The position numbers were made by a program, and so were the translations under genes. Positions 10,324 to 25,797 of a DNA stretch of 40,725 bases are shown piece by piece (within the stretch, counting starts at the first letter, position 1; the number at the start of each line of letters is the position of its first letter). Source of the DNA: Balneolaceae bacterium (GTDB lineage: Bacteria > Bacteroidota > Rhodothermia > Balneolales > Balneolaceae); the NCBI GenBank assembly GCA_003561515.1, contig PWWL01000365.1, forward strand, positions 1 through 40,725, in the 5' to 3' direction. The notes beneath the pieces are model-generated. The model saw only the letters and a list, made by a program, of their open reading frames with translations. It had not been told where the DNA came from and did not search any database.

Positions 10324-10683
10324 TTATTCGTTGTCGTCGATATCCTGTTGCTGTGGAACAGCAGGTGCAGTTTGAGATGGCACAGTAAAATCGGAAGTGT
10401 CCACATTCTGCATGCCTTGTTGCTGGATGGCACTTTGCGAACCGCCTTCGCGGTCGATGGCGAAGTTTGCAAGTACGCTAAGCGATAAAAATAATACAGC
10501 CAGAATGGTTGTTGTTTTCGACAGCAGGTCGGCAGTTCTTCGGGCACCCATTGCAGCGCCTCCTGCCATTCCGGCCGCGAGGCCTCCGGAAAGTCCTTCT
10601 CTCTGTCCCGGTTGAAGTAGTACAACAATGATCAGCAGAATGCAGATCAGTGTAATTAAGCTTATGATAATTGCGTAGAGCAT
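10324..10683 (-). CDS. secG: Preprotein translocase subunit SecG
   Basis: A small accessory subunit of the SecYEG channel in the inner membrane. The 119-residue ORF has two transmembrane helices (about 3-23 and 56-76) around the SecG signature VVLLQPGQREGLSGG and a Gly/Ala-rich cytoplasmic loop containing MGARRTADLLSKTT. The C-terminal tail is Gln/Ser/Thr-rich with an acidic end (DIDDNE), longer than in E. coli but common in Bacteroidota. It faces the TPR gene across a shared terminator and appears monocistronic. Confidence 0.92.
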   Translation of the reverse strand: MLYAIIISLITLICILLIIVVLLQPGQREGLSGGLAAGMAGGAAMGARRTADLLSKTTTILAVLFLSLSVLANFAIDREGGSQSAIQQQGMQNVDTSDFTVPSQTAPAVPQQQDIDDNE

Positions 10684-11134
10684 ATCGGAAAATCAAATAT
10701 TTTATTCTAAAGAGCCTTAAAAATATCACTATTTAAAGACTTAACAAAGCACTGAATTAAGATCAGTTTGCTACATTTTGAGATAACGACATTGTCAAGA
10801 AAAAATTGCAGCGGTACAGGCAGATTTAATATGCTGAGAGTTTGAGCTTAATCATTTTTCCCAATACCAACTCTATTTAACGCGAGTTTTCGATACAACA
10901 ATTTATATAAGAGTGTCTCCCATTCCCGAAGGTCCCACTGGAAGTCTCCCATTGAGGGGAGAACCTTTTTTAGGCGGGGAGGAGTGTTTTTGTCGTGAAT
11001 TATGAACTATTTAACTTGTACCCGAACCGGTTAAACACTCAGAAGATCATTCCCACTGGCCCCTTTCTCCCACTGGGATCCCTGTAGGAAAAGTGGGATT
11101 GTTGTGTGGCCTTCGCTGTTAAACCGAACCAACA
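10684..11134. other. Non-coding gap with repeat debris
   Basis: No convincing ORF lies on either strand between the secG start and the SRAP-like gene stop. The right half carries degraded C/G-run repeat pieces: CTCCCATTGAGGGGAG near 10950, and CCCACTGG and CCCACTGGGA-type motifs near 11051-11100 with a matching AAGTGGGA. These resemble the family seen at 38311 and 1035. The left half should hold the secG promoter, which I cannot pinpoint. Confidence 0.5.
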
Positions 11135-11749
11135 CTATTTAGGGATCGGCTGGATTAGTTTGGGGTCATTGTATTTAGGGTCATTTACTTTTTTGCTTAC
11201 ACGCATTACCGAAAGATCCGTAAGAAGAACTCTATTAACAGAAGATGTTAACAGTTCTATATTCCTTGCGCCATCGTCAATCCATCGAAGAGCCGTATCA
11301 CGATCCAAAATAAGAGGCATTTTTTCTGACATGGGCTGCACTAGTACATTGGCGTCGCTGATGATGAATTTGATAAAGCGCTGATCATCTTCAAATATTA
11401 ATCCGGGAGTTACCATCAGTGGGCCATTAAGCATTCTGACAAAAAAAGGATGATCCTTTTCACGATTATCTTTCCATACATAAAAACCACTCAAGGGTAT
11501 TGCGCATGGGATAGCTCCCTTTGTTAGCAGCTCACTGCTCGTTTCTAGATCTGCAGTGGAATCACCATTTTTTGAGCCCCATCTGATTCTTGTAATACCA
11601 ATCTCATTGTTTTCTTTGCTTACCACAGGAATGTGATAGCCGGTAGTGATATTGTAATGAGGCTCAAATAACTGCTCACTTTCTGCAGTGATGCCAAAAA
11701 AGGTTTCTACTTCCTGTTTAGTTGCAAAAAATGCGATACGTGCAAGCAT
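11135..11749 (-). CDS. SRAP (YedK/HMCES)-fold protein lacking the catalytic residues
   Basis: The 204-residue protein aligns along its length with the SOS-response-associated peptidase family, which crosslinks abasic sites in single-stranded DNA through Cys2. Matching landmarks are the N-terminus MLARIAFFAT (family MCGRF), YNITTG (family YNVAPG), IRWG, IPLSGFYVWKD (family GFYEWK), MPLIL before TALRWI, and the C-terminal KLIQPI. Yet Cys2 is Leu, the family Asn and Arg (NARxET) are Thr and Asp (TADLET), the Glu of FYEW is Val, and the His of HDRMP is Ser (SEKMP). The frame is intact and the start is unambiguous. I infer a non-catalytic paralogue, perhaps retaining DNA binding; it is not a simple pseudogene. 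Confidence 0.8.
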   Translation of the reverse strand: MLARIAFFATKQEVETFFGITAESEQLFEPHYNITTGYHIPVVSKENNEIGITRIRWGSKNGDSTADLETSSELLTKGAIPCAIPLSGFYVWKDNREKDHPFFVRMLNGPLMVTPGLIFEDDQRFIKFIISDANVLVQPMSEKMPLILDRDTALRWIDDGARNIELLTSSVNRVLLTDLSVMRVSKKVNDPKYNDPKLIQPIPK

Positions 11750-11829
11750 AACTTTTTTTGATTAATGTATTGAATGATAGTAAGATAATCCTACTTTAGT
11801 AAATAGTTTTTAAGACGAGGCGTTCGCTG

Positions 11830-12693
11830 ATGAGAAAGATCTTTTATAACCGATACGAGAACAGACTTCGGATGTTTTGGCGTGTGCTCATTGTCACAAC
11901 CATTCTGATGGCGGCAATTATTGCATTCTCTGGACTAACTAGTACAGGATACGGATTCACGATTCCGCTGGCCATTACGATGATGTTAATTCTTTGGTTT
12001 GCATCAAAGAAAGTAGATAAAAGGCCTTTTTCAGAATATGGGTTCGAACTCAAGGCAATCTGGTTTCGTGATTTTGCAGCCGGCTTTTTGATGGCTGCGC
12101 TGGCAATGGCTTCCATTGTTCTGATAAGTGTTGGCATGGATTGGATGGTGATTGACGGCTTCAATGCTACAGCGCGGTCAGGCTCATTCCTGATCGGAAT
12201 TAGCTACATTTTACTTGTAATGATTGCTGTAAGTATATGGGAGGAAGCTTATTTTAGAAGTTATCTTATCAGTAATTTCACTGAAGGGTTTCATGGAAAA
12301 TGGATGAGCAAAGGCGGTGCCATTCTGCTTGCCGTGGTTGTTTCTTCAATCATATTCGGAATGCTTCATTACGGCAATCCAAATGCCAGCTGGGTTTCAA
12401 CGCTGAATATATCCATTGCTGGATTGGTGTTCGCATATCCTTATATTGTGACGAAAAGTATTGCCATACCCGTTGGGATGCATCTCTCCTGGAACTATTT
12501 TCAGGGTGCAATTTTCGGATTGCCTGTAAGCGGCAATCAGTTTGATCAAATGCTTATGGTCGTTGATGTTACGGGTCCGGAGGTATTCACTGGAGGCAGT
12601 TTTGGGCCAGAGGCTGGAGCAGCCGGCCTGCTTGGGCTGATGATACTGGTGACTCTCAACGAGGTATACATCACCCGCTTTTATATGAAGTGA
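11830..12693 (+). CDS. CPBP family intramembrane metalloprotease
   Basis: A 287-residue, multi-pass (about eight helices) inner-membrane protein with the CAAX-protease/bacteriocin-processing (CPBP, ABI) motifs: WEEAYFRSYL (EExxxR, about 140-149), FGMLHYGNPNA (FxxxH) and MHLSWNYFQG (HxxxN/B). These supply the glutamates and histidines of the predicted active site. Substrates of most family members are unknown. It starts 80 bases from the divergent SRAP-like gene. The next gene, the motif-less helicase, follows after about 100 bases that include the hairpin AATGTGG/CCACATT (12731-12755). Confidence 0.88.
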   Translation: MRKIFYNRYENRLRMFWRVLIVTTILMAAIIAFSGLTSTGYGFTIPLAITMMLILWFASKKVDKRPFSEYGFELKAIWFRDFAAGFLMAALAMASIVLISVGMDWMVIDGFNATARSGSFLIGISYILLVMIAVSIWEEAYFRSYLISNFTEGFHGKWMSKGGAILLAVVVSSIIFGMLHYGNPNASWVSTLNISIAGLVFAYPYIVTKSIAIPVGMHLSWNYFQGAIFGLPVSGNQFDQMLMVVDVTGPEVFTGGSFGPEAGAAGLLGLMILVTLNEVYITRFYMK

Positions 12694-12795: not shown

Positions 12796-14211
12796 TTGTC
12801 GTTTAATCAATTTCGACTACGTTCCGATATTTTGAAAGGGTTGCAGGATGTAAAAATTGACAGTCCCTCCCAGTTGCAGAAAAAAATTTATAAAGCCGTT
12901 CAAAAAGGATCTGATCTTGTAATAAATACCACGGTTGAAGAAAAGCCGGAAGTCGGTTATTTGATATCCCTGCTCAATCAGATTGCAAAATCTGAAAGGA
13001 GGCAGGGAACCAGGGCTATTATTCTTACCGGCGACAAACAGCGCGCAAAGCAAATTGATGAATGGATTTGGGCGATAGGCTACCATGCTTCCATCGAAAG
13101 CGCATGCATTACGGAAGATGGAAATCCTGAAGACCAGATAAAGGCTCTTGCCGCTGGCCCTGTTGTTATTGTTGCTACTCCGGCACGTTTGGCCGAGCTT
13201 CTTGAAAAATCAAAAATGGTTTTTAGAGAGGTAGAGCAGATGATTGTTGACCAGGGCGAAACTGTACAGGAATGGGGCTCGGTTGAAACAGTTTCGAAGA
13301 GAGTAATTGGCAAATGCCAAAAGATCATCACAGCTTCCAAAGACAGTAAAGAACTACGCGATGCTGAAAAAAATCTGCTTACAGAACCGGAACTTGTTAC
13401 ACTGGCGAAAAAGAAAGATGCTGCCAAAATAAACGGGAAATCATCGGCGGATGATACGCCCGTAATTGCCCGCGATTTGACCCAATACTATATCAAAGTT
13501 CCGCCAAGGTCGAAGATTACAACGCTAATGGCTCATCTCCAAAACCATGAGGCAGATACGGTGGTAATCTTTACAGCATCACGAAGAACTGCCGACAGAC
13601 TTTATAAAGTCTTCAGAAAAGCAAACAAGCGTGCTGTAAGTGTTCACAGCCAACTTAAAAAAGAGACATTCAATGAACGGTTCGACCGGTTCAAAACAGG
13701 AAATGTTCAACATTTCATTGTCGGTGATTTTTCAGCTGCAGATATACCTCTAGAGCACGCTACGCAAGTAATCAATTACGATGTTCCGGAAAGCGTAGAG
13801 GAGTACAAGCTTCGCGCTGAGTTGGTTGGTGATGGCAAGGCTACGAAGATTGTTTCGCTGGTTTCTAAACAAGACCGGGACGATATTAATACCATTTGTT
13901 CTGAACTTGGATATGCACCTGAAGAGGTGCCTTTACCGAAATCGGTGAAAGAGAAAAAGGAAGCGGGTGAACAAAAGCCAAATGGAAAGCAGAAATCCAG
14001 GGCAAAAAAACCAGGGGCTAAAGAACGTGGAAAAGGCAGAAGTAAGCAAAAGGGCAAGAAGCGCGGCCGTCCTAAATCATCAGCCAAAACAAAACCCAAT
14101 ATCGAAGGTTTACCAAGGCCTACATTCGACCAACTTGAAGGCGGCCGGGCCGGTAAGAAAAAAGAAGAAAAAAAGGGTCTGGTTGGCTTTATCAAAGGGC
14201 TGTTCTCCTGA
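12796..14211 (+). CDS. DEAD-box helicase-like protein without ATPase motifs, basic tail
   Basis: The 471-residue ORF begins at TTG 12796, with GAGG about 7 bases upstream; no nearby ATG exists. It keeps the DEAD-box two-domain layout: a Q-motif-like SPSQLQKKI (24-32), TPAR (128-131, motif Ib), a C-terminal RecA-like domain with VVIFTASRRTADRLY (256-270) and QVINYDVPE (324-332). But motif I reads NTTVEEKP instead of a GKT loop, DEAD reads DQGE (152-155), SAT reads TAS, and HRIGRxGR reads YKLRAELVGDG (337-347). A Lys/Arg/Gly-rich tail (about 383-455) should bind nucleic acid. I infer an ATPase-dead RNA-binding homologue. The frame is intact over the full length, which argues against decay. Confidence 0.8.
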   Translation: MSFNQFRLRSDILKGLQDVKIDSPSQLQKKIYKAVQKGSDLVINTTVEEKPEVGYLISLLNQIAKSERRQGTRAIILTGDKQRAKQIDEWIWAIGYHASIESACITEDGNPEDQIKALAAGPVVIVATPARLAELLEKSKMVFREVEQMIVDQGETVQEWGSVETVSKRVIGKCQKIITASKDSKELRDAEKNLLTEPELVTLAKKKDAAKINGKSSADDTPVIARDLTQYYIKVPPRSKITTLMAHLQNHEADTVVIFTASRRTADRLYKVFRKANKRAVSVHSQLKKETFNERFDRFKTGNVQHFIVGDFSAADIPLEHATQVINYDVPESVEEYKLRAELVGDGKATKIVSLVSKQDRDDINTICSELGYAPEEVPLPKSVKEKKEAGEQKPNGKQKSRAKKPGAKERGKGRSKQKGKKRGRPKSSAKTKPNIEGLPRPTFDQLEGGRAGKKKEEKKGLVGFIKGLFS

Positions 14212-23540: not shown

Positions 23541-24504
23541 AGTAATGGGTAGGTAATTTTGCCCATGAAAAGATAAGATCTGTTCATTTGATTCGAATGC
23601 CACAAGATAAGTTCTATCAGTCTTTTCCCACGTGGATCCCTCAGTGGCAGACTGATATATGTGCCAATATAAAAGGTGTAAGCCTTACATATCATCCCGA
23701 GAATTCGGGAGGGCAACGCCCCGGGTTTGCGGATCAGTGATATAAAACCCCGAGCCCGAATTCAGATCAACGCCCTGATTCAATCCGAGGGGTTAATAGG
23801 GAAAACCCATCAACAGGTACAATGCCCACGGCTCCAATTCATGAGATCGCGGACAAACCTCCGGATTATGATTTCGTGAATTTCCACAAATACAGGCAGG
23901 AGGTTAGGGGTTCGCGCACTGCTGGTGCTACCGACCAGACATTCCTGCCGGAATGTAAACTCCAAAAAAAAGACAATCTAAATTATGTATTGGTTTGCTG
24001 ATACCGGGAATTCAAGGCCGATATATCAACTTTAAAAGTATAATTTTTTATTTATTTACGGACATATCACCCCTAACTTGCCAACTGTTTCCAATTTACT
24101 CACATTCCTCAATAGCAATAAATCCGTTTTTTATCCGTACTTTTCCATGCTGAATCAACTGACGTTCGTCGTTGACCTGCCCGGTACAAGTTTTTTGCCT
24201 CTCTTCAGGAAGTTTACATCTCTTCTGAAAATTGTAAATCGCGCTATTGGCCAGGGAGTATCCTCACATTCCCACTGTATTTATTCAAGAAGTATATCAG
24301 GAGCAGAGTGATGCGCGGTATGGGCGACAGATATTTTTTTAAACTGAGTTCGATAAAGATCTGCCTTCTTTGAAGCAATGTAGTCCCCTCCTTATGAAGG
24401 AGGGGAATAAGGGGTGGTTGGATAATGAGGCCCCGATGTTTTGGGATTTTGTTTTCTATTTTTTTAATCGAACTCACTTCAACCTATTACAGAACAATCC
24501 TTTT
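23541..24504. other. Non-coding, repeat- and hairpin-rich region
   Basis: About 960 bases without a believable gene; the TTG-started ORF 24078-24311 has no coding character. Notable folds are TATCAGTCT/AGACTGATA (23615-23623 with 23649-23657), CCCGA-GAAT-TCGGG (23696-23709) competing with GAATTCGGG/CCCGAATTC (23701-23709 with 23755-23763), and AACCTCC/GGAGGTT (23856-23862 with 23899-23905). GGCAGGA/TCCTGCC (23895-23901 with 23943-23949) encloses CTGGT/ACCAG, and ACATTCC-TGCC-GGAATGT (23939-23956) competes with it. This could be mobile-element debris or a structured RNA. The deaD-like promoter should be in the last 150 bases. Confidence 0.5.
24385..24420. repeat. G/C-run hairpin repeat (copy 2) in helicase leader
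   Basis: CCCCTCCTT-ATG-AAGGAGGGG is a perfect 9-bp hairpin followed by GGGGTGGTTG, as at 1035-1068. It lies about 85 bases upstream of the helicase ATG and explains why the track's ORF extends to 24370: that extension is repeat, not protein. Confidence 0.7.
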
Positions 24505-25797
24505 ATGAACATGACCAAATTTTCAGAGCTGGGCATCCGGCCTGAGATCCTTAAATCCATCAACGAAATGGGCTTTGAAGCCCCAACTCCAATCCAGGAG
24601 AGATCCATCCCAATCATCAGATCAGGCGGTGATATGGTTGGCCAGGCACAGACCGGCACCGGTAAAACCGCAGCGTTTGGCATTCCGGCGCTTCAAAAAG
24701 CCGATACCGGCTCAAAACTGCCATCGGTGATTATACTTTGCCCTACCCGTGAACTTGCCATCCAGGTTACCGGAGAGTTGATCAAGCTTTCAAAATATCT
24801 CGAAGGTATCTGGATTGTGCCGGTGTATGGAGGCCAGCCTATCAGCCGGCAGCTCACTGCACTGAAAAAAGGTGCCCAGATAGTGGTTGGAACACCCGGA
24901 CGTGTGATCGATCACCTGAAGCGCGGAACGCTGAAGCTCAACAATCTGAAAATGGTAATTCTTGATGAAGCCGATGAGATGCTGAACATGGGCTTTCGCG
25001 AAGACCTTGAAGAGATTCTGAGTTACAGTAAGGGCAAATCGCAAACCGTCATGTTTTCAGCTACGGTTCCGAAGGCGATCCGCCAGATTATGGAAAACTG
25101 GATGGACAAGCCCGACATGGTAAAGGTGGACGGGAAAGCTGAAACCGCCGCAGGCATCGATCAGTTTGTAATGGAGGTGCGCGATTCTGTTCGAACGGAA
25201 GCCGTATCCCGCATAATGGATATGACCAATTTCCGGCTAGCCCTCATTTTTTGTAATACCAAGCGGCTTTGTGATTCCCTGGTTCAGGAGCTGCAGGCGC
25301 GGGGATACTCCGCCGATGCACTTCACGGCGATATGACCCAAAATATTCGCGACAAGGTTATGAACAACTTCCGCAACGGAAAAATTGAAATGCTGGTGGC
25401 CACGGATGTTGCCGCACGGGGCCTTGATGTGGAAAATGTGGATGTGGTATTCAACTACGACATACCGCAGGATCCGGAATACTACGTGCACCGAATCGGG
25501 AGAACCGGCCGTGCAGGACGTACAGGCATGGCCATAACCTTTGCTTCGGGACGAAAGATGAAGCGAATCCGTTTTATTGAAAAAATTACACGGGCCAAAC
25601 TGACGCCAATCCCAATGCCTACAGTGAGGGAAGTTCAGCAGTCGAAAATGGATGTGCAGATGGAGGAGGTTCTCGAAACCCTTGAAGCCGGCGGGCTTCG
25701 GGAATACATTGAACTTCTCGAGCCGGTTGCCGAACAGGGTTATTCAGCGATTGAGATCGCGGCGGCACTGATGAAGCAGAAAGTAGAGAAAGGATAA
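24505..25797 (+). CDS. DEAD-box ATP-dependent RNA helicase, compact form
   Basis: I use ATG 24505 (MNMTKFSELGIRPEIL, 430 residues); the track's 45 extra residues come from a repeat. All motifs are intact: Q motif FEAPTPIQE, motif I AQTGTGKTAAF, Ia PTRELAIQV, Ib GTPGR, DEAD as DEADEMLNMGF, SAT, IV ALIFCNTKR, V VATDVAARGLD and VI HRIGRTGRAGR. It therefore unwinds RNA duplexes using ATP. After the core only about 60 residues remain, so it lacks the long basic or RNA-recognition tail of E. coli DeaD and DbpA. The intact motifs make a useful contrast with the motif-less homologue at 12796-14211. The stop lies 116 bases from the convergent M14 gene. Confidence 0.93.
   Translation: MNMTKFSELGIRPEILKSINEMGFEAPTPIQERSIPIIRSGGDMVGQAQTGTGKTAAFGIPALQKADTGSKLPSVIILCPTRELAIQVTGELIKLSKYLEGIWIVPVYGGQPISRQLTALKKGAQIVVGTPGRVIDHLKRGTLKLNNLKMVILDEADEMLNMGFREDLEEILSYSKGKSQTVMFSATVPKAIRQIMENWMDKPDMVKVDGKAETAAGIDQFVMEVRDSVRTEAVSRIMDMTNFRLALIFCNTKRLCDSLVQELQARGYSADALHGDMTQNIRDKVMNNFRNGKIEMLVATDVAARGLDVENVDVVFNYDIPQDPEYYVHRIGRTGRAGRTGMAITFASGRKMKRIRFIEKITRAKLTPIPMPTVREVQQSKMDVQMEEVLETLEAGGLREYIELLEPVAEQGYSAIEIAAALMKQKVEKG

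Follow-up and report, generated by a model that had tools for sequence, protein, structure and literature searches.

A conserved branch of SRAP-fold proteins in Balneolaceae that lacks the residues for crosslinking abasic sites

A founding analysis of the SRAP superfamily termed Cys2 absolutely conserved (PMC3765255), so an SRAP-like protein that begins with MLAR raises the question of whether such a protein is still an SRAP, and what it could do in the cell. In YedK, the abasic-site ring is opened by Glu105 and His160, the α-amine of Cys2 attacks as the first nucleophile with the help of Glu105 to give a Schiff base, and the Cys2 thiol closes the thiazolidine; the lyase of the C2A E105Q mutant is 25-fold slower than that of C2A, and crosslinking and lyase activity both drop sharply when Cys2 and Glu105 are missing (PMC9436759). 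The gene examined here, SRAPx, lies in a 40,725-nucleotide stretch of Balneolaceae DNA (the window), which comes from a draft MAG of genus g1 with 408 contigs and 84% completeness.

An intact SRAP reading frame without the crosslinking site

The features of the gene are as follows.
11135..11749, minus strand: SRAPx, an SRAP-fold protein of 204 aa without crosslinking residues (ORF, Pfam, AF2, Foldseek, clade support)
11744..11746, minus strand: SRAPx codon 2, Leu for the crosslinking Cys2 (YedK alignment; Cys in 0/50 relatives)
11477..11479, minus strand: SRAPx codon 91, Val for the catalytic Glu105 (YedK alignment; Glu in 0/50 relatives)
11327..11329, minus strand: SRAPx codon 141, Ser for His160 (YedK alignment; His in 1/50 relatives)

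The ORF is intact and starts with an ATG that gives the N-terminus MLARIAFFATK. Because only four codons separate this ATG from the upstream stop, an alternative MC start is impossible. SRAPx matches the whole Pfam SRAP profile (PF02586) with 77.6 bits, against a gathering score of 27.1 bits, and no other Pfam domain was matched. The closest solved structures by sequence are entries of E. coli YedK. The AlphaFold2 model, calculated from 33 homologues, has a mean pLDDT of 92, and its top Foldseek match is 6kbz_H (TM 0.85), which is YedK with ssDNA carrying an abasic-site analogue; the further matches are YedK, HMCES, and other SRAP structures, and nothing else. Since the Pfam score, the nearest structures, and the AF2/Foldseek results agree, SRAPx has a true SRAP fold, and by profile and predicted fold it is a member of the SRAP domain superfamily.

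Compared with YedK and HMCES (PF02586), SRAPx shares the fold and the profile, Arg4, Trp106, and Pro164 (E. coli YedK numbering), and the C-terminal VN..N..LI[EQ]P region, but it lacks Cys2, Gly3 (replaced by Ala), Asn75, Arg77, Glu105, and His160, the loop that carries the Asn75/Arg77 motif in the NARxET region is shortened, and it has an ending of its own, an invariant QPIPK. The sequence-only reading had proposed the simultaneous loss of Cys2, the Asn/Arg pair, the Glu, and the His in an intact SRAP ORF, and both the YedK alignment and the Pfam match bear this out; the four strings that it quoted, MLAR, TADLET, FYVW, and SEKMP, are all present. Its pairing of TADLET with NARxET holds in part: NAR is missing in each alignment tried, but the pairing itself is one possible alignment, and another matches position 75 to an Asn from the loop before it.

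The losses are shared by the whole group of relatives. When 50 SRAPx relatives from Balneolaceae were aligned with 23 canonical SRAPs from the same order, Cys2, Gly3, Asn75, and Glu105 were found in 0% of the former versus 100% of the latter, and His160 in 2% versus 100%. Arg77 is kept in 8% and Arg162 in 28% of the relatives, while Arg4, Trp106, and Asn37 are invariant among them. Judged from this alignment, the losses lie far beyond chance expectation. The replacing residues vary across the clade: A, S, I, V, M, and others at position 2, which is variable or shifted; V, I, L, K, and Q at position 105; and S, T, D, and N at position 160. Because the YedK-type residues are missing, we infer that SRAPx does not crosslink. 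The residues lend strong support to a loss of crosslinking: every one by which a crosslinking SRAP is recognized (Cys2, Glu105, His160, Asn75/Arg77) is gone, and the protein would be unable to form the thiazolidine at abasic sites and is expected to be a poor AP lyase.

Conservation and selection in Balneolaceae

A full-length SRAPx relative is present in 71 of the 82 Balneolaceae genomes searched, including the named genera Rhodohalobacter, Fodinibius/Aliifodinibius, Gracilimonas, and Balneola, and one more genome (G004) has it split over contigs. It is absent from the draft genome G089 and from nine genomes of three small-genome genera. The 50 relatives form a single clade with a support of 100/98, and the pairwise dN/dS of SRAPx (0.04–0.18) lies in a similar range to that of the canonical paralogue (0.07–0.13). 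Selection is purifying, and SRAPx is therefore not a dying gene. One relative (G062:C17:25562-26200, genus g21) carries an in-frame TAG, as a pseudogene or an error. That case and the draft status of the window's own assembly are what could speak for SRAPx as an artefact of sequencing or a pseudogene in decay, a reading whose probability is close to nil and which is refuted by the conserved clade: the losses are repeated in 50 relatives, isolates as well as MAGs, nearly all frames are intact, and the dN/dS is low. The distinct subfamily suggested from the sequence alone is backed by the shared losses, the supported clade, and the purifying selection. Orthologues with MLAR, FYVW, and SEKMP were also expected; the losses are indeed common to the clade, but the exact strings differ at positions 2 and 105.

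Across 393 sampled genomes from the phylum, no protein outside Balneolaceae scored in the SRAPx range. No SRAPx relative was found in viral contigs and PADLOC gave no match for SRAPx, and a phage or mobile origin was dropped on these grounds. A search for an SOS box in 51 SRAPx upstream regions gave just A/T tracts and no common LexA-like palindrome.

A locus shared with crosslinking SRAPs and a degenerate helicase-like neighbor

The neighborhood of SRAPx contains the following features.
10324..10683, minus strand: SecG gene, a conserved neighbor that marks the locus in other families (Pfam SecG 63.4 bits; synteny)
11750..11829, no strand: intergenic region of 80 bp separating the starts of SRAPx and CPBP, which are divergent (sequence)
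11830..12693, plus strand: CPBP/Rce1-like membrane protease gene, a conserved neighbor divergent from SRAPx (Pfam Rce1-like 63.9 bits; synteny)
12796..14211, plus strand: DEADx, a degenerate DEAD-box helicase-like protein of 471 aa and candidate partner (Pfam, motif loss, co-occurrence)

The order across the family is DEADx, CPBP, divergent SRAPx, MscS, and SecG; some members lack CPBP or MscS. The MscS-type channel gene that most relatives have between SRAPx and SecG is absent from the window; the gap at 10684-11134 holds dispersed CCCACTGG-like words, in which TRF found no tandem repeat.

In a sister family of the same order (f3), the same five genes occur at the locus. Its locus SRAP is complete, with MCGR, NARSET, FYEW, and HDRMP, and so is its locus helicase, an RhlE-type DEAD-box protein with GTGKT, DEAD, SAT, and HRIGRTAR; both were intact in all ten f3 loci fetched, one of which (L146) has no CPBP match. 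The f3 locus SRAPs (L036, L037, L138-L147) resemble SRAPx in their neighborhood, clade, PFYIRLL motif, and Lys/Arg-ended C-terminus, but differ in having the full crosslinking site and in adjoining an intact DEAD-box helicase. The orientation of the SecG-MscS pair relative to the SRAP gene is inverted in f3 (L138-L147) versus the window's family (f1). In a third family (f5), three SRAPs beside the same CPBP gene (L035, L041, L056) are half-decayed: they lack Cys2, Asn75, and His160, and two of the three keep Glu105. In a further family (f4), a canonical SRAP at a CPBP/SecG locus (L055 1010-1681, genome G054) seems frameshifted in its 3' part, by an assembly error or decay.

SRAPx (f1) and the locus SRAPs of f5 and f3 group together, apart from every other canonical SRAP (98/94); the branching order among the three groups is ambiguous (AU p 0.4). 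Because locus and clade are shared, SRAPx is best regarded as a decayed descendant or close sister of a locus-tied crosslinking SRAP. The ancestor would have been a normal crosslinking SRAP in a locus with a DEAD-box helicase, a CPBP protease, MscS, and SecG; the Balneolaceae lineage would then have lost everything needed for crosslinking to AP sites, with the fold and the invariant residues kept under selection. The series from intact f3 through half-decayed f5 to the fully decayed Balneolaceae form offers a handle on how a repair enzyme turns into a pseudoenzyme. The sequence-only reading mentioned neither the intact counterpart, nor the half-decayed third-family form, nor the degenerate DEAD-box neighbor.

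DEADx matches the Pfam domains DEAD (43 bits) and Helicase_C (47 bits), and its matches are RhlE/CshA-type helicases. It resembles these DEAD-box RNA helicases in its two RecA-like domains, the Q-motif Gln, the TPxRL of motif Ib, and the motif IV region. Unlike them, it has no GKT, SAT, or HRIGR, and DEAD is replaced in most members: SAT and HRxGR occur in 0/30 homologues, the GKT of motif I is absent from an alignment of 31, and motif II reads DEAD in 1/30 and DEAx in 7/30. By these motifs (I, II, III, VI), DEADx would not qualify as an active DEAD-box helicase. Its own features are a Lys-rich, low-confidence linker and a conserved C-terminal tail (LPRPTFDxLxGG...F.KKLF.; in the window LPRPTFDQLEGGR...GFxKKLFS). 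A weak, sub-cutoff match to the DNA polymerase III chi subunit (HolC) was also seen. DEADx and the helicase of the f3 locus do not fall together in the DEAD tree (AU p 0.02; long branch), and DEADx was therefore dropped as a tree-supported orthologue of that helicase; it may be a duplicate or replacement instead of the decayed original. An intact RhlE is retained elsewhere in Balneolaceae genomes. The window contains a further RhlE-like DEAD-box helicase gene at 24502-25599, which is 42% identical to the helicase of the f3 locus (289 bits).

Both SRAPx and DEADx occur in 69 genomes, nine have neither, and the discordant cases are limited to draft assemblies (G001, G002, G089, and G004, in which SRAPx is split). 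Within 2.4 kb lie 59 of the 69 pairs, 58 of them divergent; in genus g21 and a few others, the two genes are apart or on separate contigs and both are still present. In the rpoB tree, genus g5, which has neither, is nested inside a clade having both, which indicates at least one joint loss. The co-retention is suggestive of a shared function, but it may instead reflect that both are core genes of the family that were lost in small-genome lineages. The mirror-tree distance correlation with SRAPx is positive for DEADx (partial r 0.27–0.35), yet weaker than for CPBP (0.55), and was set aside as support for a specific SRAPx-DEADx pair.

Possible functions of a non-crosslinking SRAP

We consider it probable, at roughly 0.7, that SRAPx represents a conserved SRAP pseudoenzyme branch derived from the crosslinking enzyme of the locus, acting by non-covalent binding, perhaps with DEADx. 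That SRAPx has another role, as the sequence-only reading supposed, is a fair inference, and it would now most likely act by binding and serve as a scaffold or a regulatory subunit. DEADx is its best candidate partner, though only tentatively so. It is a rather unlikely extension of this reading that the ancestral repair locus of SRAP and helicase became a co-inherited, two-protein, non-catalytic complex with a new nucleic-acid or regulatory job.

The main rival to a scaffold or regulatory subunit is a reversible form of what YedK and HMCES do, in which SRAPx would bind abasic or junction DNA non-covalently and shield it at replication forks. Arg4, Trp106, and Asn37 are invariant, the top structural match is a YedK-ssDNA complex, and as the sole SRAP of 22 genomes SRAPx could occupy that niche; however, the residues retained are conserved in canonical SRAPs too and may be structural, most members have lost Arg77 (retained in 8%) and Arg162 (28%), and the Fodinibius proteins are strongly acidic. 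The net charge of SRAPx relatives spans +3 to -28 (L083 of Fodinibius has -26, with a pI of 4.2), which speaks against one conserved nucleic-acid surface and counts against the main reading too. We regard the shielding role as improbable, at about one chance in five. Less probable by far is a catalyst with another chemistry, using the N-terminal amine or a Lys at 105. Members from Fodinibius and Gracilimonas do read FYKW, with Lys at 105, and in YedK it is the α-amine that attacks first (PMC9436759), but a working enzyme would be expected to conserve a new active site, and the clade has no common substitute at positions 2, 105, or 160.

A canonical SRAP elsewhere in the genome, for which the sequence-only reading had suggested looking, does exist: a separate gene on another contig (G000:C62) has MCGR, NARAES, FYEW, and HDRMP. 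Such coexistence, found here and in many other genomes, would allow SRAPx to be a decoy or regulator of the same cell's canonical SRAP. A Pfam SRAP search covered 23 Balneolaceae genomes chosen for a single SRAP in the profile search. In 22 of these, the one match lies at the SRAPx position, the single-contig genomes G061 and G095 included; the remaining genome (G001) gave two matches, both of them fragments of one SRAPx. These 22 genomes have SRAPx yet no canonical SRAP, and SRAPx is therefore not just an accessory to the canonical SRAP. The role as regulator of a paralogue is weakened to a slight chance, marginally below that of a new chemistry. The same 22 genomes, which hold the dead form only, call for caution in annotating each PF02586 match as an AP-site shield.

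In the open-access literature, we found no description of a non-crosslinking SRAP branch or of an inactive bacterial DEAD-box paralogue; the SRAP superfamily itself is known, and the conserved non-crosslinking branch is what appears to be new. SRAP has been taken as a superfamily of a single chemistry defined by Cys2, and a family-wide branch without Cys2 implies that the fold is useful beyond crosslinking. SRAPs from the Marinoscillum family of Bacteroidota (L098, L099, L192-L194, L200) resemble SRAPx in lacking Cys2, Glu105, and His160, but they have another neighborhood and are placed among canonical SRAPs. Their Cys loss is probably independent of that in SRAPx, which suggests that such losses occurred more than once. 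The relatives L188-L191 of these Marinoscillum-family proteins are canonical.
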